Shown here: one piece after another, positions 4,063 to 31,597 of the stretch | Layout: each line of letters starts with the position of its first letter | Numbering within the stretch: position 1 is the first letter of the stretch | Origin: Comamonadaceae bacterium | Lineage (GTDB): Bacteria > Pseudomonadota > Gammaproteobacteria > Burkholderiales > Rhodocyclaceae | Assembly (NCBI GenBank): GCA_029255645.1 | Contig: JANLJE010000033.1 | Coordinates: 1 to 53,776 of the forward strand | DNA: 53,776 nt | Direction of reading: 5' to 3' | Translations under genes and position numbers: made by a program | The notes under the pieces: model-generated | Database searches by the model: none | What the model saw: the letters and a program-made list of their open reading frames with translations, nothing else | What the model was told of the DNA's origin: nothing

Positions 4063-5166
4063 TTAGCGCAACTTCAGGGTGGAAAGGCCGATCAGCACCA
4101 GGATGATGGTGATGATCCAAAAGCGCACGACGACCTGGGTTTCCTTCCAGCCGGTCTGCTCGAAATGGTGGTGCAAGGGCGCCATGCGCAGGATGCGCCG
4201 GCCCTGGCCGAAGCGCTTCCTGGTGTATTTGAACCAGCCCACCTGCAGCATCACCGACAGGGTTTCCACGACGAACACCCCGCCCATGATGAACAGCACG
4301 ATTTCCTGGCGCACGATCACGGCGACGCAGCCCAGGGCGGCGCCCAGGGCGAGGGCGCCGACATCCCCCATGAACACTTCCGCCGGGTAGGCGTTGAACC
4401 AGAGAAAGCCGAGCCCGGCCCCGGCGATGGCGCCGAGCAGGATGCAAAGCTCCCCCGCCCCGGGCACATAGGGCACGAACAGGTACTTGGCATAGACGGC
4501 GTTGCCGGCCACATAGGCAAAGATGGCAAAGGCCGAAGCCACCATCACGGTCGGCATGATCGCCAGGCCATCGAGGCCGTCGGTGAGGTTGACCGCGTTG
4601 GAGGTGCCGACGATGACGAAATAGGTGAGCACCACGAAGCCCCAGATGCCCAGGGGCAGGGCGACACTCTTGAAGAAGGGCACGATCAGTTCGGTCTGGG
4701 CCGGCACCTGGGCCGAGAAGGCGATGAACAGGGCCGCCCCCAGCCCGAGGAGCGACTGCCAGAAGAACTTCCAGCGCGAGGACAGGCCGTTCGGGTCGCG
4801 GTACACCACCTTCTTCCAGTCGTCATACCAGCCGATGATGCCGAACCCCAGGGTGACGACCAGCACCGTCCACACATACTTGTTGGTCAGGTCGCCCCAG
4901 AGCAAGGTGGTGATGCCGATGGCGATCAGGATCAACACCCCGCCCATGGTCGGGGTGCCGGACTTGCAAAGATGGGTCTGCGGCCCATCCGTGCGCACCG
5001 CCTGGCCGATCTTCTTGGCCGCCAGCCAGCGGATCACCGCCGGCCCCATGATCAGGGAAAAGAACAGCGCGGTCATGGCGGCCAGCATGGTGCGCAGGGT
5101 GATGTAGTTGAAGACGTTGAAGGTCCGGATGTCCTGGGCCAGCCACTGGGTCAGCAAGAGCAGCAT
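4063..5166 (-). CDS. mraY: MraY, phospho-MurNAc-pentapeptide translocase
   Basis: Integral membrane enzyme that joins UDP-MurNAc-pentapeptide to undecaprenyl phosphate, forming lipid I. The 367-residue product is predicted to have about ten membrane segments. Diagnostic motifs are [10 protein letters not shown], the aspartate-rich [21 protein letters not shown], and [15 protein letters not shown], with [13 protein letters not shown] near the C-terminus (the HHH motif). The ATG shares one base with the murF stop (TGATG). Confidence 0.98.
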
Positions 5167-6539
5167 CAGTCGGTCTCCTTTGCCGTTTCGGGGGGGGCCA
5201 ACAGCGCCTGCACGATGCGTTCCATCTTCATGAAGCGGGAGCCCTTCACCAGCACCGTGGTGCCGCCCTCCAGTTCCGGCAGGAGGGCCTGCACCAGGGC
5301 TTCCACTGTCTTGAAGTGGCGCGCGCCCTCGCCGAAGTTGCGCACCGCCTGCTGACTAGCCTCGCCCAGGGCATAGAGCCGGTCGATGCCCTGGCTCTTG
5401 GCGTAACCGCCGATTTCATCGTGATACTGGGCGCAGGCCTCGCCGATTTCGCCCATGTCGCCCAGCACCAGGATCTGCCGCCCCACGGTGGAGGCCAGCA
5501 CGTCGATGCCGGCCCGAACGGAATCGGGGTTGGCATTGTAGGTGTCGTCGAGCAGCATGGCGCCGCGGATTCCGGCCCGGCGTTGCAGGCGCCCCTTGAC
5601 GCCGGCAAAGTTGGCCAGCCCCGTCGCCACCGTATCCAGGTCCAGGCCAGCGGCCAGGGCCACGGCAGCGGCGGCCAGCGCATTGCGGGCATTGTGGCGG
5701 CCCGCAGCCTGCAGTTCGATGCTGCGGCTACCGTCGCGGGTTTCCAGCCTCAAGCGGGTATCCAGGCCATGCAGCTGCACCCGGCCGGCAACATCGGCCG
5801 CCTGATCCAGGCCAAAACCCAGGACCGGACGACCACGGTTGAGATTGCGCCAAAGGTCGGCATAGGCATCGTCGCAGTTGATGACGGCCACCCCATCCTG
5901 GCCCAGTCCTTCGTAGATGGAGGCCTTCTCCCGAGCCACGCCATCCAGGCAGCCCATGCCCTCCAGGTGGGCGCGCTGGGCATTGGTCACCACCGCCACC
6001 GTGGGCTGGGCGATGCGGGTCAGGTAGGCGATTTCGCCCGGGCTGTTCATGCCCATTTCCACCACGGCGGCCCGGTGTCCGGGCTCCAGCCCGAGAAGGG
6101 TCAGTGGCAGGCCGATGTCATTATTGAGGTTGCCCTGGGTGACCAGCACCTGTTCCCCATAAGCCACCCGGAAGATGGCGGCGATCATTTCCTTGGTCGT
6201 GGTCTTGCCATTGGAACCGGTCACCGCCACCAGGGGAATGTCGAAACGCTGGCGCCAGGCCGAGGCCATGCGCCCCAGGGCGAGCCGGGTGTCGTCCACG
6301 ACGATGGCGGGCACGCCGGCGGGCAGCCCCTCCTCCCGGGCCACCAGCAGGGCGGCCGCGCCTTGCTGCACGGCCATCTGCAGATAGTCGTGGGCGTCGA
6401 AACGCTCTCCCTTCAGGGCCACGAACAACTGGCCGCTACAGTCCTTGCGGCTGTCGGTACTGACGCCATGAAGAGTCAGATCGGCGCCGATCAGGCGCCC
6501 TTCCAGCGCTGCGGCAATTTCGCTCAGAGTCCAGCGCAT
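5166..6539 (-). CDS. murF: MurF, UDP-MurNAc-tripeptide-D-alanyl-D-alanine ligase
   Basis: Cytoplasmic ligase that adds D-Ala-D-Ala to UDP-MurNAc-tripeptide, completing the pentapeptide. The product has 457 residues. The N-terminal substrate domain contains [26 protein letters not shown], followed by the ATP loop [13 protein letters not shown] and, later, [16 protein letters not shown] and LGDMGEIGE, all typical of MurF. The ATG follows directly after the murE stop codon. Confidence 0.97.
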
Positions 6540-8012
6540 TTACGCCACCTTCCTGTTTTCGTTACGGGCCGCCAGGGCCCGCCGGGCTTGTTCTCCATCC
6601 GCAAAGGGATGGCGCACCCCGGCAATTTCCTGGTAGGGCTCGTGGCCCTTGCCAGCAATCAGGATCACGTCCTGCGCTCCGGCGCCGCGCACCACCCCGG
6701 CGATGGCCCGGCCCCGGTCGGCCTCGACCCGGGCGCCCGGGGCGCCTTGGCGGATGGCATCGATGATGTCCATGGGGTTTTCGCTGCGCGGATTGTCGCT
6801 GCTGATCCAGGCTTCATCGGCCAGGGCCGCGGCCACCTCGCCCATCAGCGGGCGCTTGCCCGGGTCCCGGTCGCCACCACAGCCAAAGAGGCACAGCAGC
6901 CGTCCGCCCCGAGCCGTGGCCAGCGGCCGTAGCGCCGCCAGGGCATTGGCCAGGGCATCCGGGGTATGGGCGTAATCCACCAGCACCAGCGGCTCCCCCG
7001 TGCCGCCGTAACGCTCCATGCGTCCAGGGGGCGGGGTCAGGCGGGCCAGACGCTCCGCCGTGGCCCGCGGCTCCAGCCCCCGGTCCAGCAACACCGCGGC
7101 GACGGCCAGCAGATTGGCAATGTTGTAGGCCCCCACCAGCGCGGTTTCCACCGCGGCATTCCCCCACGGGGTCTGCAATTCGAAGGCCTGGCCGCTCGCC
7201 GTCGCCACGAGCCGGGCGGCGCGCAGCACGGCCGGCAGGTCGCGGCGCCCTTCCAGGCTGTAGCCGATCACCCGGTCCGCCGTACTGGTGCGCGCCAGCT
7301 GCTGCCCCAGGGCATCGTCCAGATTGATCACCGCCAGGCGCAAACCGGGCCAGCGGAACAGCTTTGCCTTGGCGGCGCCATAGGCTTCCAGGGTGCCGTG
7401 GTAGTCGAGGTGATCGCGGGTCAGATTGCTGAAGAGGGCCGTATCGACCCGGCAACCGTTGATGCGGCCCTCTTCGATGCCGATGGAACTGACCTCCAGG
7501 GCGCAGGCTTTGGCCCCCTGCTCCCCCTGTCCGGCGAGGAGCCGGGCGAGAGTGGTCGCTTCCGGAGTGGTGAAACCGGTTGGCTCCAGTTGCCCGGGGA
7601 AACCCGCCCCCAAGGTGCCAATGCTCGAACAGGGCTCCGGATAGACCTGGGCCAGCCACTGGCTGATGGTGGTCTTGCCGTTGGTGCCGGTGACCGCCAA
7701 CAGGGCCACGGATTCACTCGGCCGGCCCGCCAGTTCATGAGCCAGGGGGCCCGCCAGCGCACGCAGGCCGGGTACTTCCAGATGAGGCACCTGCCAGTCC
7801 GGATTCCAGGCGAAACCGCCGCCGGGCTCCCAGCACACGGCCGCCGCACCGGCGGCCAGGGCTTCGGCGATGTACTGCCGTCCATCCGCCCCATGACCGG
7901 GATAGGCCAGGAACAGTTCGCCCGGACGTACCTGACGGCTGTCATCCATCGCGCCCGTCAGGCCAGCGGACGACAGTCCCAGTTGCGCCAGCAGCAGGCT
8001 CGCCCCGGTCAT
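6540..8012 (-). CDS. murE: MurE, UDP-MurNAc-L-Ala-D-Glu-meso-diaminopimelate ligase
   Basis: Cytoplasmic ligase adding the third stem residue. Of the 490 residues, the ATP loop is VTGTNGKTTISQWLA and the specificity motif reads DNPRSENP. The DNPR form is the known signature for meso-diaminopimelate rather than lysine, matching a Gram-negative wall. The N-terminal domain has DDSRQVRPGELFLAYPGHGADG. The ATG at 8012 overlaps the ftsI stop (ATGA). Confidence 0.97.
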   Translation of the reverse strand: MTGASLLLAQLGLSSAGLTGAMDDSRQVRPGELFLAYPGHGADGRQYIAEALAAGAAAVCWEPGGGFAWNPDWQVPHLEVPGLRALAGPLAHELAGRPSESVALLAVTGTNGKTTISQWLAQVYPEPCSSIGTLGAGFPGQLEPTGFTTPEATTLARLLAGQGEQGAKACALEVSSIGIEEGRINGCRVDTALFSNLTRDHLDYHGTLEAYGAAKAKLFRWPGLRLAVINLDDALGQQLARTSTADRVIGYSLEGRRDLPAVLRAARLVATASGQAFELQTPWGNAAVETALVGAYNIANLLAVAAVLLDRGLEPRATAERLARLTPPPGRMERYGGTGEPLVLVDYAHTPDALANALAALRPLATARGGRLLCLFGCGGDRDPGKRPLMGEVAAALADEAWISSDNPRSENPMDIIDAIRQGAPGARVEADRGRAIAGVVRGAGAQDVILIAGKGHEPYQEIAGVRHPFADGEQARRALAARNENRKVA

Positions 8013-9760
8013 ACCACTCCCTCCTTCTTGCCGTCCGTCACCTGCTGCACCGGGGCGTCGGGTGCAATCCCCATGGTGCGCAGGGCGCCCGCTGTAATCT
8101 GGGAAAACACCGGACCTGCCACGCTGCCGCCAAAATACTTGCCGGACGAGGGTTCATCCACCATCACCGCGACGATGAAGCGCGGTTCCGACATGGGCGC
8201 AATGCCCACAAAGGAAGCCACGTAGCGGTGGGCGTAGAACCCGCCTTCCAGCTTGTGGGCCGTGCCGGTCTTACCGCCCACCCGGTAGCCGGGCACCTGG
8301 GCCTGAGGCGCCGTGCCGCCGGGGCCGACGACCATTTCCAGCATGGTGCGGACTTCCCGCACCGTCTGCGGCGAAAACACCTGCACTCCCCGGGGCGGCG
8401 GCTGTTCCAGCTTCTGCAAGGAAAGGGGCAGCAGGTCCCCGTCCCGGGCGAACACCAGATAGGCCCGGGCGAGCTGGATCAGACTGACGGAGATGCCGTG
8501 GCCGTAGGCCATGGTGGCCTGCTCGATCGGACGCCAGTGCTTCCAGGGCCGCAGGCGGCCGCCCACCTCACCGGGAAAACCCAGGGCCGGCGGGGTGCCA
8601 AAGCCCAGGGTATCGAACATCTCCCACATTTCCTTGGGCGCGAAGGTGGACGCAATCTTCACCGCGCCGACGTTGGAGGATTTCTGGATCACCTGGGCCA
8701 CGGTCAGGGCACCATGGGGGTGAGAATCGGAAATCGTGGCCCCGCCAATGGTGATGTGCCCCGGGGCACAGTCGATGATGGAGTCGAAACGGAACTTGCC
8801 CTTTTCCAGGGCCAGGGCCACCGTGAAAGGCTTCATGGTGGAGCCCGGCTCGAAGCTATCGGTGACGGCGCGGTTGCGCAGCTGCGGCCCGGTGAGCCGG
8901 GCCCGGTTGTTGGGGTTGTAGGAAGGCCAGTTGGCCAGGGCCAGGATTTCCCCGGTTTTCGCATCGATCACCACCGCCCCGCCCGCCTTGGCCTGATTGT
9001 CCTGCACCGCCTGTTTGACCGCCGAAAAGGCCAGGTACTGGATCTTGGAATCCAGGGCCAGGCGGATGTCCTTGCCATCTTGCGGCGGCCGCATGCTGCC
9101 CACATCCTCGACGATCTGGCCGCGCCGGTCGCGAATGACGCTGCGACTGCCGGGGTGCCCCATCAGCGCCGGCTGATAGGCCAGTTCCACGCCCTCCAGG
9201 CCGCGATCATCGACCCCGGTAAACCCGACGATATGCGCCACCATCTCGCCCGCCGGGTAATAGCGGCGAAATTCCTTGCTTTGGTGCACGCCCGGCAACT
9301 TCAGGGCCGCGATCCGATCCGCCGTTTCGGGCGGCACCTGACGCTGCAGATAGACAAAATTCTTGTCGCTCGCCAGGTGCCGCTGCAATTCCTTCACATC
9401 CATGTCCAGCAGGCCCGCCAGACTCCTGACCTGGAGCGGCTCCAGCTTGCCGGCATCGACCGGAATGGCCCAGACCGACTTCATGGGCGTGCTGATGGCG
9501 AGCAGATCGCCATTGCGGTCGAGAATCTTGCCCCGCGAGGCAGACACTTCCAGATCGCGCAGGTAGCGGGATTCACCCTGGCCCTGCAAAAACTCGTTAT
9601 TCACCACCTGCAGATAGAAAGCCCGCCCCAGCAAGGCCGCGAACAGGCCCAGAAACACCAGGCCGGCCAGGCGCGAGCGCCAGCCCGGCAACGCCAGTTG
9701 CAGCAAGGGGCTCTCGCTGAAGCGATGCGCCCGGGAAGTATGGCGGCGACGCACGGCCAT
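8009..9760 (-). CDS. ftsI: FtsI / PBP3, septal peptidoglycan transpeptidase
   Basis: Bitopic class B penicillin-binding protein that cross-links septal peptidoglycan. In the 583 residues there is a cytoplasmic N-tail rich in Arg, one membrane anchor (about residues 32-52), a dimerisation/pedestal domain, and the transpeptidase domain. The catalytic motifs are all visible: SxxK as STMK, SSN in QKSSNVG, and KTGT in GGKTGTAHK. It shares one base with the ftsL stop and overlaps the murE start by four bases, so ftsL-ftsI-murE are translationally linked. Confidence 0.98.
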   Translation of the reverse strand: MAVRRRHTSRAHRFSESPLLQLALPGWRSRLAGLVFLGLFAALLGRAFYLQVVNNEFLQGQGESRYLRDLEVSASRGKILDRNGDLLAISTPMKSVWAIPVDAGKLEPLQVRSLAGLLDMDVKELQRHLASDKNFVYLQRQVPPETADRIAALKLPGVHQSKEFRRYYPAGEMVAHIVGFTGVDDRGLEGVELAYQPALMGHPGSRSVIRDRRGQIVEDVGSMRPPQDGKDIRLALDSKIQYLAFSAVKQAVQDNQAKAGGAVVIDAKTGEILALANWPSYNPNNRARLTGPQLRNRAVTDSFEPGSTMKPFTVALALEKGKFRFDSIIDCAPGHITIGGATISDSHPHGALTVAQVIQKSSNVGAVKIASTFAPKEMWEMFDTLGFGTPPALGFPGEVGGRLRPWKHWRPIEQATMAYGHGISVSLIQLARAYLVFARDGDLLPLSLQKLEQPPPRGVQVFSPQTVREVRTMLEMVVGPGGTAPQAQVPGYRVGGKTGTAHKLEGGFYAHRYVASFVGIAPMSEPRFIVAVMVDEPSSGKYFGGSVAGPVFSQITAGALRTMGIAPDAPVQQVTDGKKEGVV

Positions 9761-10029
9761 CAGCGCCCTCCGCCTGGCAAATACACCGGCGAGACACGCG
9801 CCGGCACCACCATCTTCAGCCGTTCCCGGGCGATTTTCTCGATGCGCGAATGGGTCGCCCAGGTGGATAGTTCCAGTTGCAACTGGTCATACTCGACATC
9901 CAGTTGCCGGGCGCGCTCCTGCTCGGCCTCGAGGGCCTGAAAGAGCTTGCGCGCCTTGTGCTGGGAAGTCACCGTCCCCAGCGCGCACATCACCGCCACC
10001 AGTAACAGGATCATATTGAAACGCAACAT
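9760..10029 (-). CDS. ftsL: FtsL, divisome bitopic protein
   Basis: An 89-residue protein with a very short N-terminus, one hydrophobic segment (MILLLVAVMCALGTV, about residues 6-20) and a periplasmic region with heptad-like charged/leucine spacing (KLFQALEAEQERARQLDVEYDQLQLELS), as in FtsL coiled coils that pair with FtsB. Sequence conservation in this family is low; the call rests on size, topology and position between rsmH and ftsI. Start and stop each share one base with a neighbour (TGATG). Confidence 0.92.
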   Translation of the reverse strand: MLRFNMILLLVAVMCALGTVTSQHKARKLFQALEAEQERARQLDVEYDQLQLELSTWATHSRIEKIARERLKMVVPARVSPVYLPGGGR

Positions 10030-10958
10030 CAGAGTTTTTCCGCCGTACGCATCACGGCACTACGGGCCCGTGGATTGGCCATCACTTCTTCTGTCGATGG
10101 CTTGCAAGCCTTGCCCAGCAAACGCAGCGTGGGCCTGGGCAACTGGTCGGCGCGCAAGGGCAGGTCTTTGGGCAGGGCATCGGCCGGCATCGCAGCCTTG
10201 CGCATGAACTGCTTGACGATCCGGTCTTCCAGGGAATGAAAGGAAATCACCACCAGCCGCCCGCCCGGGCGCAGCAACTCCAGCGCCTGCGGCAGGGCTA
10301 GCGCGAGCTCGCCGAGCTCCTGATTGACGTGAATCCGTAGAGCTTGAAAGCTGCGCGTCGCCGGATCCTGACCGAGCTCGCGGGTCCGCACGGTTTCGCG
10401 TACGAGCGTGGCGAATTGACCTGTGGTTGTAATAGGCCGCTCGGCCCGAGTAGCCACAATCTTCTTTGCAATCTGGAAAGCAAACCGTTCTTCGCCATAA
10501 TTTCTGATGACCTCCGTGATGTCTCTTATTTCGGCCCGCGCCAGCCACTCCGCCGCCGTCTCGCCGCAGGAGGTATCCATGCGCATGTCGAGGGGTGCGT
10601 CGTGGCGGAAGCTGAAACCCCTCCCACCTTCGTCCAGCTGGGGACTGGAAACCCCCAGGTCGAACAAGATGCCATCAAAGCCGGAAAAACCGGCCTCCTC
10701 CGCCCCTTCCGACAACTCGGAAAAAGGACGGTGCAACAACGTGAAACGGGAATCGACCAGGGCGCGCCCGGCCTCGATGGCCACCGGGTCCCGGTCCAGG
10801 GCCAGCAAATGCCCGGCCTCGCCCAACTGCGCCAGAATGGCCCGGCTGTGGCCGCCGCGGCCGAAGGTGGCATCCATGTAAGCCCCCCCGGGTTGCACCG
10901 CCAGCGCTTCCACCGCCTCCTGCAGCAGCACCGTGACATGGGCGCCGCCAGCCTTCAC
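10029..10958 (-). CDS. rsmH: RsmH, 16S rRNA m4C1402 N4-methyltransferase
   Basis: SAM-dependent methyltransferase acting on C1402 of 16S rRNA, historically MraW. The 309-residue product begins [19 protein letters not shown] and contains the SAM loop [35 protein letters not shown], and the C-terminal [17 protein letters not shown]. The frame is open further upstream inside mraZ, but the GTG at 10958 overlaps the mraZ stop (GTGA) and yields the standard N-terminus. RsmI, encoded at 13817-14656, modifies the same nucleotide at the ribose, so both C1402 enzymes lie within 5 kb. Confidence 0.97.
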
Positions 10959-11404
10959 AGGGAAATATCCTCGAAACCCGGGGGCGGCTCGTCGCTTTGC
11001 AGCGCCTCGAAAGCCAGTTCGTTCTGGCGCCGCCAACCGGCATCGCTCCAGATTTCGAAATGACTTCCCATGCCCACCATCCAGATCGTTTTTTCAAGTT
11101 GAGCGTGCTCCCGAAGCTCGGGAGCCACCAGCATCCGTCCGGCCGAATCCATGGATTCGGTCCGGGCATTCCCCACCAGCACCCGCTTCAGGCTCTGGGC
11201 CCGGGCATCGAAGCTGGGGGCTTTCAGAATCTTGTCGCGAATCGGCTCCCAGGCCGACAGGGGATAAAGCAGCAGACAACGCTGGGGATGAGCAGTCAGC
11301 ACCAGGGAGCCTTCGGCCGCGGAGACGAGCGCGTCCCGGTGGCGCGCCGGAATGGCAAGCCGCCCTTTCGCATCCAGACTCAGCGAAACCGCTCCTTCAA
11401 ACAT
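10955..11404 (-). CDS. mraZ: MraZ, transcriptional regulator of the dcw cluster
   Basis: SpoVT/AbrB-fold DNA-binding protein known to repress its own dcw operon and to influence RsmH. The 149-residue product starts [24 protein letters not shown]; the [13 protein letters not shown] motif recurs in a diverged second copy, [14 protein letters not shown], as expected for the two-repeat fold. The ATG at 11404 was chosen over earlier in-frame starts because the family begins at MF(x)G and because upstream codons run through the operator and promoter. It is the first gene of the operon. Confidence 0.97.
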
Positions 11405-25074: not shown

Positions 25075-25863
25075 GTGTGGATCGACAGCCACTGCCACCT
25101 GGACGCCCCCGAATTCGAGCCGGATCGTGATCGGGTCTGGCAGTCCGCCCGGGACCTCGGCGTGGTGGGTGCCCTGATTCCGGCCATCAGCCTTGCCAAC
25201 TGTGCGGCGGTAGATGCCTGCTGCCAACGCTACCCGGGCTGCGCCCCGGCCTATGGCATTCACCCGCTGTTCGTCATGGCCGCGGGGGAAGCCGATCTGG
25301 CAGGGCTGGCCCGCCGCCTGGAGCAGCAGCGCCCGGCGGCCATCGGGGAAATCGGCCTGGACGGCCATGTGACCAACGTGGCGTTCGACCGGCAGGAACA
25401 CTTCCTGGTCGCCCAGTTGCGCCTGGCCCGGGAATTCGAGCTCCCCGTGGTGCTGCACATGCGCCAGGCGGTGGATCAGGTGCTCAAGCAACTGCGCCGC
25501 ATCCGGGTGCCGGGCGGCATCGCCCACGCCTTCAACGGCAGCCGCCAGCAGGCGGAGGAATTCATCAAGCTGGGGTTCAAGCTGGGCTTTGGCGGCACCC
25601 TCACCTACCCCGGCAGCACCCGCATCCGCCGCCTCGCGGTCGACTTGCCGCGGGAGGCCCTGGTGCTGGAGACCGACGCCCCGGACATTCCCCCGAGCTG
25701 GCTCGCCCGGGGCCGCAACAGCCCGGCCGAACTGCCGCGCATCGGCCGGGTCCTGGCGGAGCTGCGGCAAATGCCGGAAGCGGAACTGGCGGCGCAGTTG
25801 TGGCAGAACACCCTTACCGCCCTGCCGGGCCTTGCGGCGGTGTTAAAGGGGCCCAAAGCGTGA
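25075..25863 (+). CDS. TatD-family metal-dependent hydrolase (deoxyribonuclease)
   Basis: A 262-residue TIM-barrel hydrolase. Metal ligands are seen at DSHCHLD (HxH), IGEIGLDG, VVLHMRQA, HAFNGS and ETDAP. Family members show 3'-5' exonuclease or DNase activity; the paralogue (TatD, YcfH or YjjV) cannot be settled by eye. The start is GTG at 25075 (VWIDSHCHLD), ten bases after dadA; no other start leaves the metal motif intact. It ends convergently with the ClpX-like gene, 28 bases apart. Confidence 0.92.
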   Translation: MWIDSHCHLDAPEFEPDRDRVWQSARDLGVVGALIPAISLANCAAVDACCQRYPGCAPAYGIHPLFVMAAGEADLAGLARRLEQQRPAAIGEIGLDGHVTNVAFDRQEHFLVAQLRLAREFELPVVLHMRQAVDQVLKQLRRIRVPGGIAHAFNGSRQQAEEFIKLGFKLGFGGTLTYPGSTRIRRLAVDLPREALVLETDAPDIPPSWLARGRNSPAELPRIGRVLAELRQMPEAELAAQLWQNTLTALPGLAAVLKGPKA

Positions 25864-25891: not shown

Positions 25892-26893
25892 CTAAGCCGC
25901 GCGAAACTCGGGCGGCTCAAAGAGGGAGCGGATCACTACCTGGCGCACCTCGGGCCGGTCCGGCACGGCAAACAGCACCGGATTGAGCACTTCCTCGAAG
26001 ATGCCGCGCAGGCTGCGCGCCCCGGTCTTGTATTCGTAGGCGATATCGGCGATCTGCTGGAACACGGCGGGCGCTATCTTCAGCTCGACCCCTTCCTGGG
26101 CCAGGATTTCCCGGAACTGCCGGTACAGGGCCTGGCGCGGCTCGACCATGATGCGCACCAGCATCTCCTTCGAGAGTTCGCGCAGCCTCGCCAGCACCGG
26201 CAGGCGCCCGGTGAATTCGGGAATCAGGCCGAACTCGAACAGGTCGGTGGGTTTCACCCGGCTGTTGATGCGATCGAGGAGGCTGGCATCCTCCCCCTGG
26301 GCCGTGCCGATATAGCCGAAGCTGTGGGTGCGGGCCATGATCTGCTCGAGGCCCACGAAGGCGCCACCGCAGAGAAAGAGGATGCCCGAGGTATCCACCA
26401 CCCGCCCGTCCTCGAGCCGCACCGGCGCCCCTTCCATGATCTTCAGGAGGGCATGCTGGACGCTTTCCCCGGACACCAGGCGGGGCTGGCCGTCGCTGCT
26501 GGCCTTGAGCTTGTCGACCTCGTCGATGAAGACGATGCCCTGGCCGGCGAGGTCCGTCTGTCCTCCCGCCTTTTCCACCAGCCGTTCCATGATCGCCTCG
26601 ATCTCCTCTCCCACGAACCGGGTCTGGGCGAGGGAAGTGGCATCCGCGGTGACGAAGGGCACCTGGAGCAGCCGCGCCAGGGTTTCGCAGAGCAGGGTCT
26701 TGCCGCAGCCCGAGGGGCCGATGATGAGCACATTGCTCTTGTCCATCGACGCAGCCCCGCCCCGGGCCAGGGCGAGCTTGCGGTAATGGAGATAGACCGC
26801 CACCGCCAGCACTCGCTTCGCCTCCTCCTGGCCGATCACATACTGGTCGAGGTAGGCGACGATCGCGCTGGGTCTTGCCGTCTGAATCGCCAT
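25892..26893 (-). CDS. ClpX-like AAA+ ATPase lacking the zinc-binding domain
   Basis: A 333-residue AAA+ protein closely resembling the ATPase part of ClpX (YVIGQEEAKRVLAVAVYLHYRKL, Walker A GPSGCGKT at 59-66, Walker B VFIDEVDK at 121-128, GLIPEFTGRLPV with the arginine finger, sensor-2 KTGARSLR). It differs from true ClpX: no N-terminal zinc-binding domain, pore-1 loop RFVG (92-95) in place of GYVG, and SFGYIGTAQ where ClpX carries the ClpP-docking IGF loop. It is therefore probably an unfoldase or remodeller not working with ClpP in the usual way; that is inference. The ATG at 26893 shares one base with the stop of the upstream GGDEF-EAL gene (TGATG); an in-frame GTG lies one codon earlier. 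Confidence 0.88.
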   Translation of the reverse strand: MAIQTARPSAIVAYLDQYVIGQEEAKRVLAVAVYLHYRKLALARGGAASMDKSNVLIIGPSGCGKTLLCETLARLLQVPFVTADATSLAQTRFVGEEIEAIMERLVEKAGGQTDLAGQGIVFIDEVDKLKASSDGQPRLVSGESVQHALLKIMEGAPVRLEDGRVVDTSGILFLCGGAFVGLEQIMARTHSFGYIGTAQGEDASLLDRINSRVKPTDLFEFGLIPEFTGRLPVLARLRELSKEMLVRIMVEPRQALYRQFREILAQEGVELKIAPAVFQQIADIAYEYKTGARSLRGIFEEVLNPVLFAVPDRPEVRQVVIRSLFEPPEFRAA

Positions 26894-29787
26894 CACACCG
26901 CATCTCCGTCATCCACCACACAGGGGAGTTCGAGGAGTTGCCAGGGAGGGCAGGGGCGGGAATAGAGGTAACCTTGCAACTGATCGCAACCCATCTCCAC
27001 CAGGCGCTTACGCTGCGCCTCGGTTTCCACCCCTTCGGCCACGGTTTCCATGGACAGGGCATGAGCCAGCAGGATGATGGCCTGGACCACCGAGCGGGCT
27101 TCGGGCTCCTGGCCCAGGCCCTGGACAAAGCTCTGGTCGATCTTGACCACATCCACCGGGAAGCGGGAAAGGTAAGAAAGGGAAGAGTAGCCGGTGCCAA
27201 AGTCGTCGATGGCAATGCGGATGCCCCACTGGCGCAACCGGGAAAACAGCTGGAAAGTGCGCCCGGGATCATCCGCCAGGGAAGATTCGGTCAATTCGAT
27301 TTCCAGGCCGCGAGGGGGGATGCCAGTTTCCCGCAGGATGCCGGCCACCATCCCGGAGAAGTCCGGATTACGCAGTTGCCGGGCCGACACATTGACCGCC
27401 ACGCGTTCAATGGGCAAGCCCTGGTTCTGCCACTCCACCAGTTGGCGGCAAGCCGTTTCCATGCACCAACGCCCGAGCACATCGATATAGCCCGTGGCTT
27501 CTGCCAGAGGGATGAAGCGATCCGGCATCAGCAGGCCACGGCGCGGGTGCTGCCAGCGCACCAGGGCTTCCACCCCCAGGATCAAGCCGGTACGGGCATC
27601 CACCTGCGGCTGGTAGTAGAGGCAGAGTTCGTCCCGGGCCACGGCATGGCGCAGATCGGTTTCCAGCTCCAGGCGATCGAGAGAGTTCTCGCTATCGCTT
27701 TCAAGGAAGAAGCGGAAGATGGAACGGCCGGCATCCTTGGCGTTGTAGAGCGCCACGTCCGCATGTTTGAGCAGGGTCTGGGGATTTTCCCCATCGGAGG
27801 GATAGACGGCAATGCCAATGCTGGTGGTGACGAACACCTCCCGCCCATCCAGATCGAAGGGGGTCTCGAATTCGGCCAGCATGCGGCTGGCCAGCGAGGC
27901 CGCATCCGCGTGAGACGAAATTTCGGGCAGCAGCAGGGCAAATTCGTCGCCGCCCAGCCGCCCCAGGGTATCTCCTTCGCGCAGCAGGCGGGTCAGGCGC
28001 TGGCTCACGGATTTCAGCAGGATGTCCCCCGCCCCATGCCCCAGCGAGTCGTTGATGGATTTGAACCGGTCCAGGTCAAAGAGCATGATCGCCAGGGGGC
28101 GTCGGCTGCGGTGCGCCTGGTGCATGGCATTATCGAGCCGATCGTTGAACAGCAGCCGGTTGGCCAAGCCGGTCAGCGGATCATGATAGGCCAGGTGGTG
28201 GATGTAAGCTTCCGCCTGCTTGCGCTCGGAAATATCCGAGAACAGGGCAAGGTATTGCACGATCGCCCCCGCCTCATCCCGCACGGCCGTGATGGAAAGC
28301 CACTCGGGGTAGGTTTCGCCGCTCTTGCGCCGATTGATGATCTCGCCCTGCCATTTACCCGCTTCATTCAGGCTCTTCCACATCTCCTGATAAAAACTCT
28401 TGTCGTGGATGCCGGAACCCAGCAGGAACCCCGGCGTATGGCCCACGGCATCGGCCTCGGTAAAGCCGGTGATGCGGGTGAAAGCCGGATTGACCGACTG
28501 GATCCGCCCATCCGGCCCGGTGATGGTCATGGCTTCGGAGAGATTGTCGAATACCCGCGCCGCCAATTGCAGCCGGGCCGCGGCCATGCGCTGGGCGCTG
28601 ATGTCGCGAAAGGAGGTCACATAGCCCGGGGGCCCGTCACTCCCATCCCGCCTCGCCATGGGGCCCCCGAGAAAAGCCACGGGCAGTTGCTTGCCATCCG
28701 GACGCTGCACACACTCCTCGCCCTCAAAGGAACGCCCCGCCGCCAGGGCCGCCCGGAACGAAGAATCCTGCGCCTCATCCTGGGGCAAAATGCAATCCAC
28801 CGACTGGCCCAACAGCTCGCTTTCGCTACGGCCCAGCAGCACCTCAGCACGTCGATTCATGAAATTGAGTCGGCCCCGGGCATCAAAACTGAGAATACCC
28901 TCGCCCAGATGATCCGCCACGTTATTCAGCAAGCTGTGACTCCTGGCCAGTTCCTGGGCCGTATGCCGCAAGCGCAGCATGATCAGGGCAACCACCGCAA
29001 TCATGAACAAGGCAAAGATGGCCATCAACCGCCGGTAATGTTCGGCCTGAATCTCCGCCCGGGCAAAGGCCCGCGCATATTCACCATAAGCCCGCTCCAT
29101 ATCCTCGGGGAAGCGGCTGCGGGAAAGGTCGTACATCAGGCGCTGCAGCGGCAAATGGTCATTCACGATCAATTTGCCATGCGCCGCAAGCAGCCGCGCC
29201 CGGGTAGCGGCAGGCTCCGGCCAGCGCCGACTTCCGGCCTCGAGGCGGTCGAGGCCGGCAACAATGCGGGAAACATCCTCGGTCTGCTGCGCATTGACAA
29301 AAATGAGCACATCCCGGGTAACCGAATTCAGGAGGGAAGCCGGGGCACGCCAAGAAGCGTCCCAGCCGGAATGCAACTGCGTGGCGAGATTGACGAAGTG
29401 TTGCAGGGAATTGTTCAGCACCGCGTTCTGCCGTTTGAAATCCTCCATCTCCCGCTGTTTCTGGCGCCAGCTTTCCCGGGCCGCCTGCAGCGCCCCAGGC
29501 AGGCCGATCCGCTCGAAATCGGTCTGCAGCGCTTGCAACAACTCCTCGGCCTGGGCCCCGGATATGGCCAGGCTGTCATAGTCGAGCAGCTGGCGATGGC
29601 GCAAGCGCAACACCTCCAGATTCACCCGGGTATCGAGCCCCAGGGCCTGGCGCACCTGCAATTCGACCTGGACCCGGTTGCCGCTGCTGACCCGGGCACT
29701 CAGGAAATACAGCGTGATCAGCACCATGGCCAGAAAAGCCAGTAGCATCCAGGGCAGAAATGGGCGCAAGGCAACACGGACCTTCAC
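26893..29787 (-). CDS. Membrane sensor PAS-PAS-GGDEF-EAL protein
   Basis: A 964-residue inner-membrane c-di-GMP protein. Two hydrophobic segments (about 12-30 and 254-272) flank a 220-residue helical periplasmic domain (31-253) that resembles the all-helical DAHL-type sensor, though this is tentative. Then PAS (285-397), PAS (408-522), GGDEF (530-690; GGDEF at 612-616, RxxD inhibitory motif at 603-606) and EAL (705-955; EAL at 740-742, with NVSARQL, ELTESS, DDFGTGYSS, KIDQSF, AEGVET). Both active sites appear intact. Start and stop overlap the peroxidase gene upstream and the ClpX-like gene downstream, so all three are probably co-translated. Confidence 0.92.
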   Translation of the reverse strand: MKVRVALRPFLPWMLLAFLAMVLITLYFLSARVSSGNRVQVELQVRQALGLDTRVNLEVLRLRHRQLLDYDSLAISGAQAEELLQALQTDFERIGLPGALQAARESWRQKQREMEDFKRQNAVLNNSLQHFVNLATQLHSGWDASWRAPASLLNSVTRDVLIFVNAQQTEDVSRIVAGLDRLEAGSRRWPEPAATRARLLAAHGKLIVNDHLPLQRLMYDLSRSRFPEDMERAYGEYARAFARAEIQAEHYRRLMAIFALFMIAVVALIMLRLRHTAQELARSHSLLNNVADHLGEGILSFDARGRLNFMNRRAEVLLGRSESELLGQSVDCILPQDEAQDSSFRAALAAGRSFEGEECVQRPDGKQLPVAFLGGPMARRDGSDGPPGYVTSFRDISAQRMAAARLQLAARVFDNLSEAMTITGPDGRIQSVNPAFTRITGFTEADAVGHTPGFLLGSGIHDKSFYQEMWKSLNEAGKWQGEIINRRKSGETYPEWLSITAVRDEAGAIVQYLALFSDISERKQAEAYIHHLAYHDPLTGLANRLLFNDRLDNAMHQAHRSRRPLAIMLFDLDRFKSINDSLGHGAGDILLKSVSQRLTRLLREGDTLGRLGGDEFALLLPEISSHADAASLASRMLAEFETPFDLDGREVFVTTSIGIAVYPSDGENPQTLLKHADVALYNAKDAGRSIFRFFLESDSENSLDRLELETDLRHAVARDELCLYYQPQVDARTGLILGVEALVRWQHPRRGLLMPDRFIPLAEATGYIDVLGRWCMETACRQLVEWQNQGLPIERVAVNVSARQLRNPDFSGMVAGILRETGIPPRGLEIELTESSLADDPGRTFQLFSRLRQWGIRIAIDDFGTGYSSLSYLSRFPVDVVKIDQSFVQGLGQEPEARSVVQAIILLAHALSMETVAEGVETEAQRKRLVEMGCDQLQGYLYSRPCPPWQLLELPCVVDDGDAV

Positions 29788-30869
29788 TCCCGCACCTCCC
29801 CGTTCAAGGCGTTGAGAAACAGGACCATCAGCTTCACATCCTGTTGCGGCAATTCAATCCCCAACTGGAAACGCCCCATCTGGGCCACCGCCTCTTCCAG
29901 CGTGGCAGCGGAACCATCATGGAAATAGGGCCCGGTCAGGGCCACATTCCTCAAACCCGGCACCTTGAAGACATGCCGGTCCTCTTCCCGACCGGTGACA
30001 TTGAAGCGCCCCAGATCGGCCTGGGTCAGCGGCTGCTTCCCGGCAAAATAGTCCTGCATCACTCCGAAGCGCTGGAACATGTTGCCCCCCACATTGGCGC
30101 CCTGATGACAGGCAGGGCAGCCGTGCCGCTTGAACAGGCCGTAACCCTCCAGCTCCTCGCTCGAGAGCGCCTCGTCATCGCCCAGCAGCCAGCGATCCAT
30201 GCGCGAGGGCGTCATCAGGGAACGCTCGAATTCGGCAATGGCATCCTGGATGGCGGCCGCAGACGGTGCCGATTTGTAGAGCGCAACGAAGCGGGCCTCC
30301 AGTTGGGCATCCTTTCCCAGCTTGAGCAGGACATCCGCCCAGCGGGAATCCATTTCCAGAGGATTGTGGATGGGACCCGCCACCTGATCCTCCAGGCTCG
30401 GTGAGCGGCCATCCCAGAATTGCCGGAAATTCAGCGCCGCATTGAGCACCGTCGGCGCATTGATCGGCCCTTCCTTCTGCCCCACGCCCAGGGAATGGAC
30501 CCGATGATCCACGCCGCCCCGGGAAAGATCATGGCAGGAGGCACAACTGATGCGGTTATCCCGCGACAAGCGCGGATCATGAAACAAGGCGCGGCCCAGG
30601 GCCACCTTGGCCGGATCGAGATCACTGGCGAACTGAATCGGCAGCAGCGGCTCATCAAACCGGACCCTTTGAGCCCGGGCCTGGAGCAGGGTACGGGACG
30701 CGGGCGCAGCCTCCTGGGAAACAGGCAGGGAAGATGAAAATCGAACGACCAGCAGGATCGCCAGCAACAAGATCGCCAGCAACAGGATCGCCAACAACAC
30801 AAGCCCCGCCCCCAGCCGCTTCTTCAGTGCCGCAGGAGAAAGGAAAGGATCCGGGGTTGCAGCAGGCAT
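29784..30869 (-). CDS. Membrane-anchored di-heme cytochrome c peroxidase
   Basis: A 361-residue bacterial di-heme peroxidase (CcpA/MauG superfamily) that reduces H2O2 using cytochrome electrons in the periplasm. Heme sites are CASCH (109-113) and CPACH (251-255); other family blocks are ALFHDPRLSRDNRISCASCHDLSRGGVD, NAPTVLNAALN and KVPGLRNVALTGPYFHDGS. Instead of a cleavable signal it has an N-terminal anchor (about 22-42) made of repeated LLAIL units, so it is probably tethered. The stop overlaps the next gene (ATGA), placing peroxide chemistry and c-di-GMP signalling on one transcript. A cytochrome c5-like gene lies upstream on the same strand and could be an electron donor. Confidence 0.93.
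   Translation of the reverse strand: MPAATPDPFLSPAALKKRLGAGLVLLAILLLAILLLAILLVVRFSSSLPVSQEAAPASRTLLQARAQRVRFDEPLLPIQFASDLDPAKVALGRALFHDPRLSRDNRISCASCHDLSRGGVDHRVHSLGVGQKEGPINAPTVLNAALNFRQFWDGRSPSLEDQVAGPIHNPLEMDSRWADVLLKLGKDAQLEARFVALYKSAPSAAAIQDAIAEFERSLMTPSRMDRWLLGDDEALSSEELEGYGLFKRHGCPACHQGANVGGNMFQRFGVMQDYFAGKQPLTQADLGRFNVTGREEDRHVFKVPGLRNVALTGPYFHDGSAATLEEAVAQMGRFQLGIELPQQDVKLMVLFLNALNGEVRE
30756..30800. repeat. Three 15-bp tandem repeats within the peroxidase anchor
   Basis: GATCGCCAGCAACAA, GATCGCCAGCAACAG and GATCGCCAACAACAC follow each other without gaps. On the coding strand they give the repeated LLAIL of the membrane anchor. The 15-bp unit is a multiple of three, so copy-number changes would lengthen or shorten the helix in frame. 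Confidence 0.85.
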
Positions 30870-31103: not shown

Positions 31104-31556
31104 TTACCTGGCCTGGCTCACCAGATAATCAACGGCAGCCTTGATCTCGTCATCCGACAGATTCGCTGCGCCGCCCTTGGGAGGCATGGCATTCTTGCCG
31201 CCGAGGGCGGATCGATAGAGGGCATCGCTACCGGTAGCGATCCGGGGGGCCCAGGCCGCCTTGTCACCCTTCACGGGAGCACCCGCCGCCCCGGTAGCAT
31301 GGCACGCGCTGCAAACGGAGGCATAGACGGCAGGACCATCCTTGGGCTGGGCGCTTGCTGCCGCATCGGCAGGGCCGGCGACCTTCAGTTCGAATCTGGC
31401 AACGGGCTGGATGCGGACTTCGGCATCTTCGGCACTTCCCGCCGTGGAAGGCGTATTGCCTTTGATGGTGAAGGGGACGATGACCACCGTGAGCAAGACG
31501 GCAACCGCGATTGTCATGTACATGATGGACTTGGACGAATGTTTCTGGTCGGCCAT
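31104..31556 (-). CDS. Cytochrome c5-like monoheme protein
   Basis: A 150-residue protein with an N-terminal membrane segment (IMYMTIAVAVLLTVVIVPFTI) and a C-terminal c-type heme domain: VYASVCSACHATGAAGAPVKGDKAAWAPRIATG with one CxxCH and the downstream Met of NAMPPKGG as likely axial ligand. This fits the cytochrome c5 family, small electron carriers at the inner membrane. The ATG at 31556 is preceded by GAGGAA; the open frame extends 12 codons further without a ribosome site. It could feed electrons to the peroxidase encoded next on the strand. Confidence 0.9.
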   Translation of the reverse strand: MADQKHSSKSIMYMTIAVAVLLTVVIVPFTIKGNTPSTAGSAEDAEVRIQPVARFELKVAGPADAAASAQPKDGPAVYASVCSACHATGAAGAPVKGDKAAWAPRIATGSDALYRSALGGKNAMPPKGGAANLSDDEIKAAVDYLVSQAR

Positions 31557-31591
31557 GCTGACTTCCTCAAAACGAAAAAAGATAACGCGCA

Positions 31592-31597
31592 ATTATA
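31592..31597 (-). promoter_or_regulatory. -10 box upstream of the cytochrome c5-like gene
   Basis: A perfect TATAAT on the minus strand, 36 bases before the ATG at 31556. No -35 hexamer of quality is present at 16-18 bases, so the call rests on the -10 alone. Confidence 0.4.

Follow-up and report, generated by a model that had tools for sequence, protein, structure and literature searches.

A conserved pair of di-haem peroxidase and DAHL sensor genes with a ClpX-like neighbour in a Comamonadaceae genome

The stretch of 53,776 nucleotides analysed here (the window) is part of contig C33 of the 2.9-Mb genome of a Comamonadaceae bacterium. Its minus strand carries three consecutive genes that encode a di-haem cytochrome c peroxidase, a membrane sensor with a periplasmic DAHL domain and a ClpX-like AAA+ ATPase. 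An earlier note on this DNA had joined the three products into one pathway, leading from peroxide via cyclic di-guanosine monophosphate (c-di-GMP) to protein remodelling. Comparison with related genomes suggests another composition: the trio appears to be a conserved pair, made up of peroxidase and sensor, plus a guest gene.

The list of open reading frames and a Pfam scan confirmed the three frames, their positions and their domains as first described. The peroxidase (29784..30869, minus strand, 361 amino acids; CCP_MauG, 9e-53) has an N-terminal hydrophobic anchor at about residues 19-43, as read from the translation, and two haem sites, CASCH and CPACH, and it keeps Trp152, Gln162, Glu172 and Met331 of bacterial peroxidases. 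The sensor (26893..29787, minus strand, 964 amino acids) has the architecture TM-DAHL-TM-PAS-PAS-GGDEF-EAL, for which Pfam provided the domains and the translation the transmembrane (TM) segments. Its DAHL domain scores 100.3 bits against a Pfam cut-off of 38 and covers amino acids 39-252 in the N-terminal periplasmic region, and GGDEF and EAL occupy residues 533-688 and 711-945. The c-di-GMP catalytic sites had been called intact, and indeed the GGDEF and EAL motifs and the surrounding residues are readable in the translation, if the catalytic motifs are what we take them to be. The third gene (25892..26893, minus strand, 333 amino acids) matches AAA_2 and ClpB_D2-small.

Both junctions are overlapping, as had been noted. 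At 29784..29787 (minus strand), however, the bases are GTGA and not ATGA, so that the peroxidase ends on TGA and the sensor starts on GTG; a G-rich stretch just before this overlap could bind the ribosome. The junction of sensor and ClpX-like gene at 26893 is TGATG with a one-base overlap, exactly as reported, and an alternative GTG start of the ClpX-like frame three bases earlier, at 26896, would give a four-base overlap. The overlaps had been taken as a sign of joint function. According to simple in-house gene calls over the whole window, overlaps of one or four bases are found in 8 of 25 same-strand neighbour pairs, both junctions of the trio included, and the genes next door, presumably SpoT-like and DadA-like, are likewise among them. 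Since such overlaps are common in the window, an overlap by itself is weak evidence of a shared function.

Pairing of peroxidase and DAHL genes

Three samples were compared, taken from the phylum (299 genomes), the family (61, one per genus) and the genus (20, including that of the window). A profile search of the phylum sample with PF19443 (DAHL) gave at least 67 matches in at least 48 genomes; both numbers are lower bounds, because in some genomes only the best nine DAHL candidates were scored. The same 48 genomes hold 95 CCP_MauG matches, four of which are short fragments. A CCP_MauG match lies directly upstream of the DAHL match, on the same strand, in 58 of the 67 cases, and the gap between the two domain matches is 444-612 bp throughout these 58 pairs. 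In 39 paired loci that were examined closely (32 from the phylum sample and 7 from the family), the start codon nearest the overlap point was taken, and a four-base overlap start of the sensor is possible in 26 of them. Within the family, the N-terminal region of the window sensor as query found 8 of 61 genomes and the Pfam DAHL model 11 of 61; the peroxidase is directly upstream in 10 of these 11, and the DAHL match of the remaining genome, G047, is 343 bases away from the end of a contig. The genus gave the same picture. DAHL and peroxidase are each present in 19 of 20 genomes, the peroxidase immediately precedes each of the 18 main DAHL copies that could be judged, the window's among them (that of G372 is cut off by a contig end), and four further copies (G365, G372, G374 and G375) also stand behind a peroxidase.

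The search did not find DAHL in 148 genomes of another phylum (that of G377) or in 4 further genomes examined through their loci, which does not prove its absence there, nor in 14 control genomes. Because the matches are limited to the sampled phylum, we limit the claim of a pairing to that phylum. Two observations on single genomes may be added. G100 encodes five DAHL proteins, and a separate peroxidase gene precedes each of them, which suggests parallel specialised pairs. The DAHL sensor match of G369 (C195, L251) holds one in-frame TAA stop, which is either a broken gene or a sequence error.

The peroxidases of the pairs form one group. The closest solved chains to the window peroxidase are 9qdt, 1iqc and 3o5c, and the distal-loop histidine of 1iqc is replaced by Val129. 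Among 57 paired peroxidases the distal position is Val in 37, Ile in 10, Phe in 3, Ala and Leu in 2 each and Thr, Asp and Tyr in 1 each. His is found in none of these 57, and in 13 of 20 unpaired peroxidases (the others have Asp 4, Val 2 and Ala 1). Two further paired peroxidases, from G050 and G025, also lack the distal histidine, and an unpaired one from G035 has Asp. On a tree that leaves out nine loci for want of a usable peroxidase frame, the 57 paired and the 20 unpaired sequences divide on a single branch with support 98/98. The other residues of bacterial peroxidases are mostly retained in the pairs: Met in all 57, Trp in 56, Gln in 54 and Glu in 50.

The sensor side is uniform in its input and diverse in its output. 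In 46 DAHL proteins scanned with Pfam (the window sensor, those of 38 of 40 retrieved phylum loci, two of which were cut short, and 7 from the family) we found HATPase_c in 36, HisKA in 28, a receiver in 23, Hpt in 14, GGDEF in 10 and EAL in 8. Apparently, the same front end drives different outputs; the window holds the c-di-GMP form, and elsewhere the sensors would mostly be histidine kinases. In G054 a glycosyltransferase gene (L147:1401-4169), part of which is GH17-like, shares four bases with the peroxidase gene, a hint that polysaccharide may be the target of the c-di-GMP output there.

No solved structure matched DAHL by sequence. Among the conserved positions of the domain are Asp71, Lys110, Phe117, Lys118, Asn126, Ser127, Pro132, which is Val in the window, and His203. 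Of 18 chosen sites, 40 paired copies keep 10-17, with a mean of 13.1, and six copies without a visible peroxidase keep 5, 4, 9, 2, 11 and 2, although in two of the six, from G205 and G216, contig ends prevent a judgement on the partner. The value of 11 belongs to G228 and looks like a recent loss of the partner. The second DAHL copy of G190 scores 99 bits against the Pfam model, similar to several paired copies, yet its residues at positions 71, 126 and 203 are different ones, and an Asp stands just ahead of position 71. Since this copy scores well and still loses conserved residues, the loss may be due to more than general divergence.

The peroxidase as putative detector

The paired order of the two genes, their varied outputs, the single peroxidase group, the missing distal histidine and the loss of DAHL residues in copies without a visible partner are the observations on which our interpretation is built. 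We consider it rather probable, on these grounds of sequence and gene order, that the peroxidase is the detector for the DAHL sensor and that the two together act as an enzyme-coupled periplasmic peroxide or redox sensor, in the window with a c-di-GMP output. The conserved unit would consist of two genes, one for a membrane-tethered periplasmic di-haem peroxidase and one for a membrane sensor translated right after it, and the periplasmic DAHL domain would read the state of the peroxidase. Without a distal histidine the peroxidatic haem would be open to hydrogen peroxide (H2O2) without prior reduction. In the model of YhjA from Escherichia coli a distal ligand is missing as well, and the oxidised enzyme is reported to be able to bind its substrate and to need no reductive activation (PMC10301912). 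By analogy, the paired peroxidases should be ready to react at once, which would fit a detector.

The electrons would come from a c-type cytochrome. A gene for a small c-type cytochrome of 162 amino acids (31104..31592, minus strand; Cytochrome_CBB3, 5.8e-18) is located 235 bp upstream of the peroxidase gene in the window. Counted within the genus, a related gene lies at most 0.6 kb upstream in 13 of 16 loci with enough sequence, and in G362, G366 and G370 it is missing or more distant. Its product is a possible electron donor of the peroxidase. The reaction with H2O2 as the presumed signal, or else the redox state of the cytochrome pool, would then change the peroxidase, which would contact the DAHL domain. 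The signal would cross the membrane and pass the PAS domains to GGDEF-EAL, and the level of c-di-GMP would change in one direction or the other.

It is tempting to go one step further. Tentatively, and with a little less than even confidence, we propose that this is a general transmembrane system of the phylum, in which a catalytic di-haem peroxidase serves as detector subunit for c-di-GMP and two-component outputs. That DAHL in such a system reads the turnover of the peroxidase with H2O2, or the supply of electrons to it, is a suggestion we make just as guardedly.

Several points weigh against the peroxidase as a detector. The link is drawn from gene order, and co-transcription alone could explain the pairing. 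Six of the nine DAHL copies outside the 58 pairs have no peroxidase match within 3 kb upstream, although the contig seems long enough (G125, G145, G176, the second copy of G190, G228 and G258; for G145 the absence is read from match positions). DAHL can thus exist without a peroxidase. The other three exceptions are G216 and G220, which lie at contig ends, and G205, with only about 570 bp of upstream sequence. In addition, the lower residue scores of the orphan DAHL copies may in part reflect general divergence. The distal difference is not exclusive, given that 7 of the 20 unpaired peroxidases also lack the histidine (Asp 4, Val 2, Ala 1), and the split of the tree may be cleaner than the true one, because 19 of the unpaired sequences are high-scoring members of the same bacterial family and only one was taken from the class. 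Some paired peroxidases lack other catalytic residues, as the counts of Trp, Gln and Glu given above (56, 54 and 50 of 57) imply. Finally, a single-sequence model of the DAHL domain is all helical with low confidence (mean predicted local distance difference test, pLDDT, 60.9) and came with no docking evidence, and the negative searches for DAHL in the 148 genomes of another phylum and in the 14 control genomes stand on this side as well.

The orphan copies were also inspected for a replacement partner. G228 and G258 have no peroxidase match in the genome and carry a methylase-type gene upstream of the DAHL gene, which is a TP-methylase in G228 and has the same length and nearly identical first residues in G258. 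The second DAHL copy of G190 follows a gene for an FtsH-like protease. Both kinds of upstream gene are unrelated, and the idea of a replacement partner was dropped.

The main rival is plain co-expression: the DAHL domain would bind a small ligand of its own and the peroxidase would be a co-regulated detoxifying enzyme, needed under the same conditions. The contact between the two proteins is something we infer, orphan DAHL proteins exist, and the conserved polar residues Asp71, Lys118, Asn126 and His203 could form a pocket for a small ligand, all of which is in keeping with mere co-expression. It explains less well that kinase and c-di-GMP outputs share the same partner, that the partners belong to one peroxidase group, that the upstream order is kept, often with an overlap, and that DAHL copies without a visible peroxidase keep fewer conserved residues. 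We therefore regard co-expression alone as unlikely, though deserving serious attention.

A second rival has the peroxidase oxidatively modify the DAHL domain, with the modification as the signal. MauG and MbnH do modify proteins encoded beside them, and the window peroxidase belongs to their superfamily, with NCBIfam matches far below the cut-offs (MauG 145.0 versus 443.85 bits, MbnH-like 147.9 versus 362.85 bits). Tyrosine is common at DAHL positions 70 and 130 (29 and 28 of 46), which could offer a target. However, position 130 is His in the window, there is no invariant Tyr, and neither Trp nor Cys is among the conserved columns listed; moreover, all 57 sequences have Met in the column of the haem ligand, as in peroxidases, where MauG has Tyr. 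A MauG-like modification of DAHL is thus a weak candidate, and we consider it quite improbable.

The ClpX-like gene

In our reading the ClpX-like gene is probably a later arrival in one sub-lineage, and its product would act on its own as an unfoldase. Proteins of this type (438-712 bits) are found in 15 of the 61 family genomes, and the next best proteins, of the canonical ClpX type, reach at most 295 bits. A search for co-occurrence, which the earlier note had asked for as a check on its pathway, gave none between the ClpX-like and the DAHL gene: the former is present in 15, the latter in 11 and both in 3 of 61 genomes, a number expected by chance (Fisher p = 1.0). In G020 the two are about 480 kb apart on one contig and in G025 they are on different contigs. 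Within the genus, 14 of 20 genomes have the ClpX-like gene, and only 3 of the 20 (the window, G359 and G362) have it directly after the sensor. In G358 the arrangement is split between the ends of two contigs, which would fit this order. In the other 10 carriers, the 5-15 kb around the ClpX-like gene contain neither peroxidase nor sensor, and one of the carriers, G371, has no peroxidase-sensor pair at all.

The window, G358, G359 and G362 group together in the peroxidase tree with support 98/92. In the tree of ClpX-like proteins G359 and G362 join the window with 100/98, the truncated row of G358 standing unresolved beside them. The site itself is marked by a convergent gene (25075..25863, plus strand) for a hydrolase that we take to be TatD-like. 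In G369 of the same genus (L251) and in G003 of another genus (L144), synteny shows the TatD-like gene and the sensor gene as immediate neighbours, the ClpX-like gene being absent from the site. The simplest history would be that the ClpX-like gene arrived once, behind a pair already in place, with loss elsewhere as the alternative. On the available evidence it is a lineage-specific neighbour, at most co-expressed and probably outside the conserved module.

A single three-gene system was therefore rejected, the ClpX-like gene being unlinked to the pair outside one sub-lineage. A three-part pathway from peroxide via c-di-GMP to ClpX-like remodelling can point to the one-base coupling in the window, to the same gene order in G359 and G362 and to an order that seems to have been kept since one event in a sub-lineage of four genomes, but we consider it extremely improbable in view of the 10 of 14 genus carriers in which the gene is not beside the pair, the lack of co-occurrence in the family (3 of 61 with both), the many kinds of neighbours and the site without it in G003 and G369. 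Of the order proposed earlier, the peroxidase-sensor part is thus widely kept and the ClpX-like part is restricted to close relatives. In the same way, gene order supports the half of the pathway from peroxidase to c-di-GMP and leaves the ClpX half without support. The earlier note appears to have been right about the former link, for which the pairing of DAHL and peroxidase is a better reason than the overlaps.

The neighbours of ClpX-like genes do not share a theme, and a common one was rejected after a Pfam scan of 20 proteins from 16 loci; one of the 20 is the ClpX-like frame of L133 itself, and some do not come from the next gene. They include ankyrin repeats, a 2'-5' RNA ligase-like protein, DUF2799, AMP-binding and alpha/beta hydrolase proteins, LysR, a pseudouridine synthase, an FAD oxidase and others. 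Shared neighbours were seen only in small groups: a WYL-type regulator follows the gene in L130, L054 and L056, and in L050, L051 and L132 it has a frame of one unnamed family beside it. In G364 (L240, 4060-9221) the ClpX-like gene is about 1.3 kb from a pyrC-like gene, and the corresponding block, which we presume to be PyrC, PyrB and YqgE, lies a few kb from the trio in the window, on the other side of the pair. This arrangement may be a trace of a local move of the ClpX-like gene.

The protein itself is best seen, by its sequence features, as a separate unfoldase paralogue that would have its own targets. It falls below the NCBIfam cut-offs for ClpX (356.3 versus 359 and 327.3 versus 370.75 bits); the canonical ClpX of the same genome, which also has a canonical tig-clpP-clpX-lon cluster, scores 692.9 bits. 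In a tree with 29 of 86 canonical ClpX (every third), 37 ClpX-like sequences, the window's included, split off on one branch with support 100/100. The N-terminal C4 zinc motif is present in 0 of 36 ClpX-like relatives versus 86 of 86 canonical ClpX, and the window frame begins at the AAA module. The RKH loop is likewise found in 0 of 36 versus 86 of 86, in a stretch of 18 versus 28 residues, and the first pore loop of the ClpX-like clade lacks the canonical Gly. The residues for ATPase activity (Walker A, Walker B, Arg finger and sensor 2) are kept. At the place of the IGF tripeptide the 36 relatives have FGF (19), FGY (8), YGY (7), YGF (1) and LGF (1), and the 86 canonical proteins IGF (76), MGF (7) and 3 others; it is quite possible that the protein still docks on ClpP. 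The window protein itself has no RKH loop, and its IGF loop is altered. In G031 (L133:6498-9098) the ClpX-like domain is at the C terminus of an 866-amino-acid frame whose N-terminal part of about 530 amino acids has no Pfam match; this may be a natural fusion pointing to a partner or a long frame with a late start. By description, the window protein resembles ClpX3 of Myxococcus xanthus, which is reported to come from an isolated clpX copy that can be deleted and to lack the N-terminal domain (PMC11423568).

As for the rest of the window, scans for promoters and terminators stayed near the shuffled controls (2 versus 1.2 and 6 versus 5.3, respectively). At 4063-11036 there is a run of minus-strand genes, joined by overlaps of one or four bases or by none, with two paralogous frames of 457 and 490 amino acids; it looks like a subunit cluster.

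Relation to known systems

A haem protein encoded beside a c-di-GMP or kinase gene has precedents. In SwH-NOX/SwDGC and HnoX/HnoK of Shewanella, a small reactive molecule is sensed by a separate haem protein, which in turn controls a GGDEF-EAL or kinase partner (PMC8846402). The pair in the window resembles the H-NOX and NosP systems in this gene arrangement and differs from them in that the putative detector is a periplasmic di-haem c-type enzyme and its partner has a periplasmic DAHL domain. No HNOB or NosP haem domain was found in the Pfam scan of the window proteins. H-NOX is the cytoplasmic HNOB domain that senses nitric oxide.

Among peroxidases, a parallel is offered by the non-classical quinol peroxidases (YhjA, PerC, QPO), with which the window enzyme shares the N-terminal membrane anchor and, going by the model of YhjA, the lack of a distal ligand on the peroxidatic haem (PMC10301912). 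The solved chain that matches best, 9qdt (Probable cytochrome c peroxidase by name, presumably YhjA), likewise has Val at the distal place. Unlike the YhjA type, the window peroxidase has two CXXCH motifs in 361 amino acids, no third haem and a sensor gene as partner. With the classical di-haem peroxidases it shares the two CXXCH motifs and, aligned with 1iqc and 3o5c, the Trp, Gln, Glu and Met residues; it differs in the absent distal-loop histidine, the anchor and the sensor partner.

Periplasmic proteins that regulate a sensor encoded beside them are known from TorT/TorS and LuxP/LuxQ. The pair is similar to these and to DbfQ/DbfRS of Vibrio cholerae; however, TorT, LuxP and DbfQ are binding or small proteins, whereas the partner in the window is a redox enzyme.

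A word search in the available text of a review that describes itself as a comprehensive census of c-di-GMP stimuli (PMC8846402) found none of the words peroxidase, hydrogen peroxide, oxidative stress and cytochrome, and matched DAHL only in the first letters of an author's name. Within the open-licence literature searched, a single paper uses the term DAHL domain, in a list of Pfam families, and none of the matches listed there deals with a peroxidase and a DAHL sensor as a pair. Through the pairing the DAHL domain would gain a function that can be tested, the missing distal ligand in one group of peroxidases would find a possible reason, and c-di-GMP and kinase signalling would have a further input, from redox chemistry in the periplasm. 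If the tentative extension to a general system of the phylum is true, it would provide a function for both the DAHL domain and the peroxidase group without the distal histidine.

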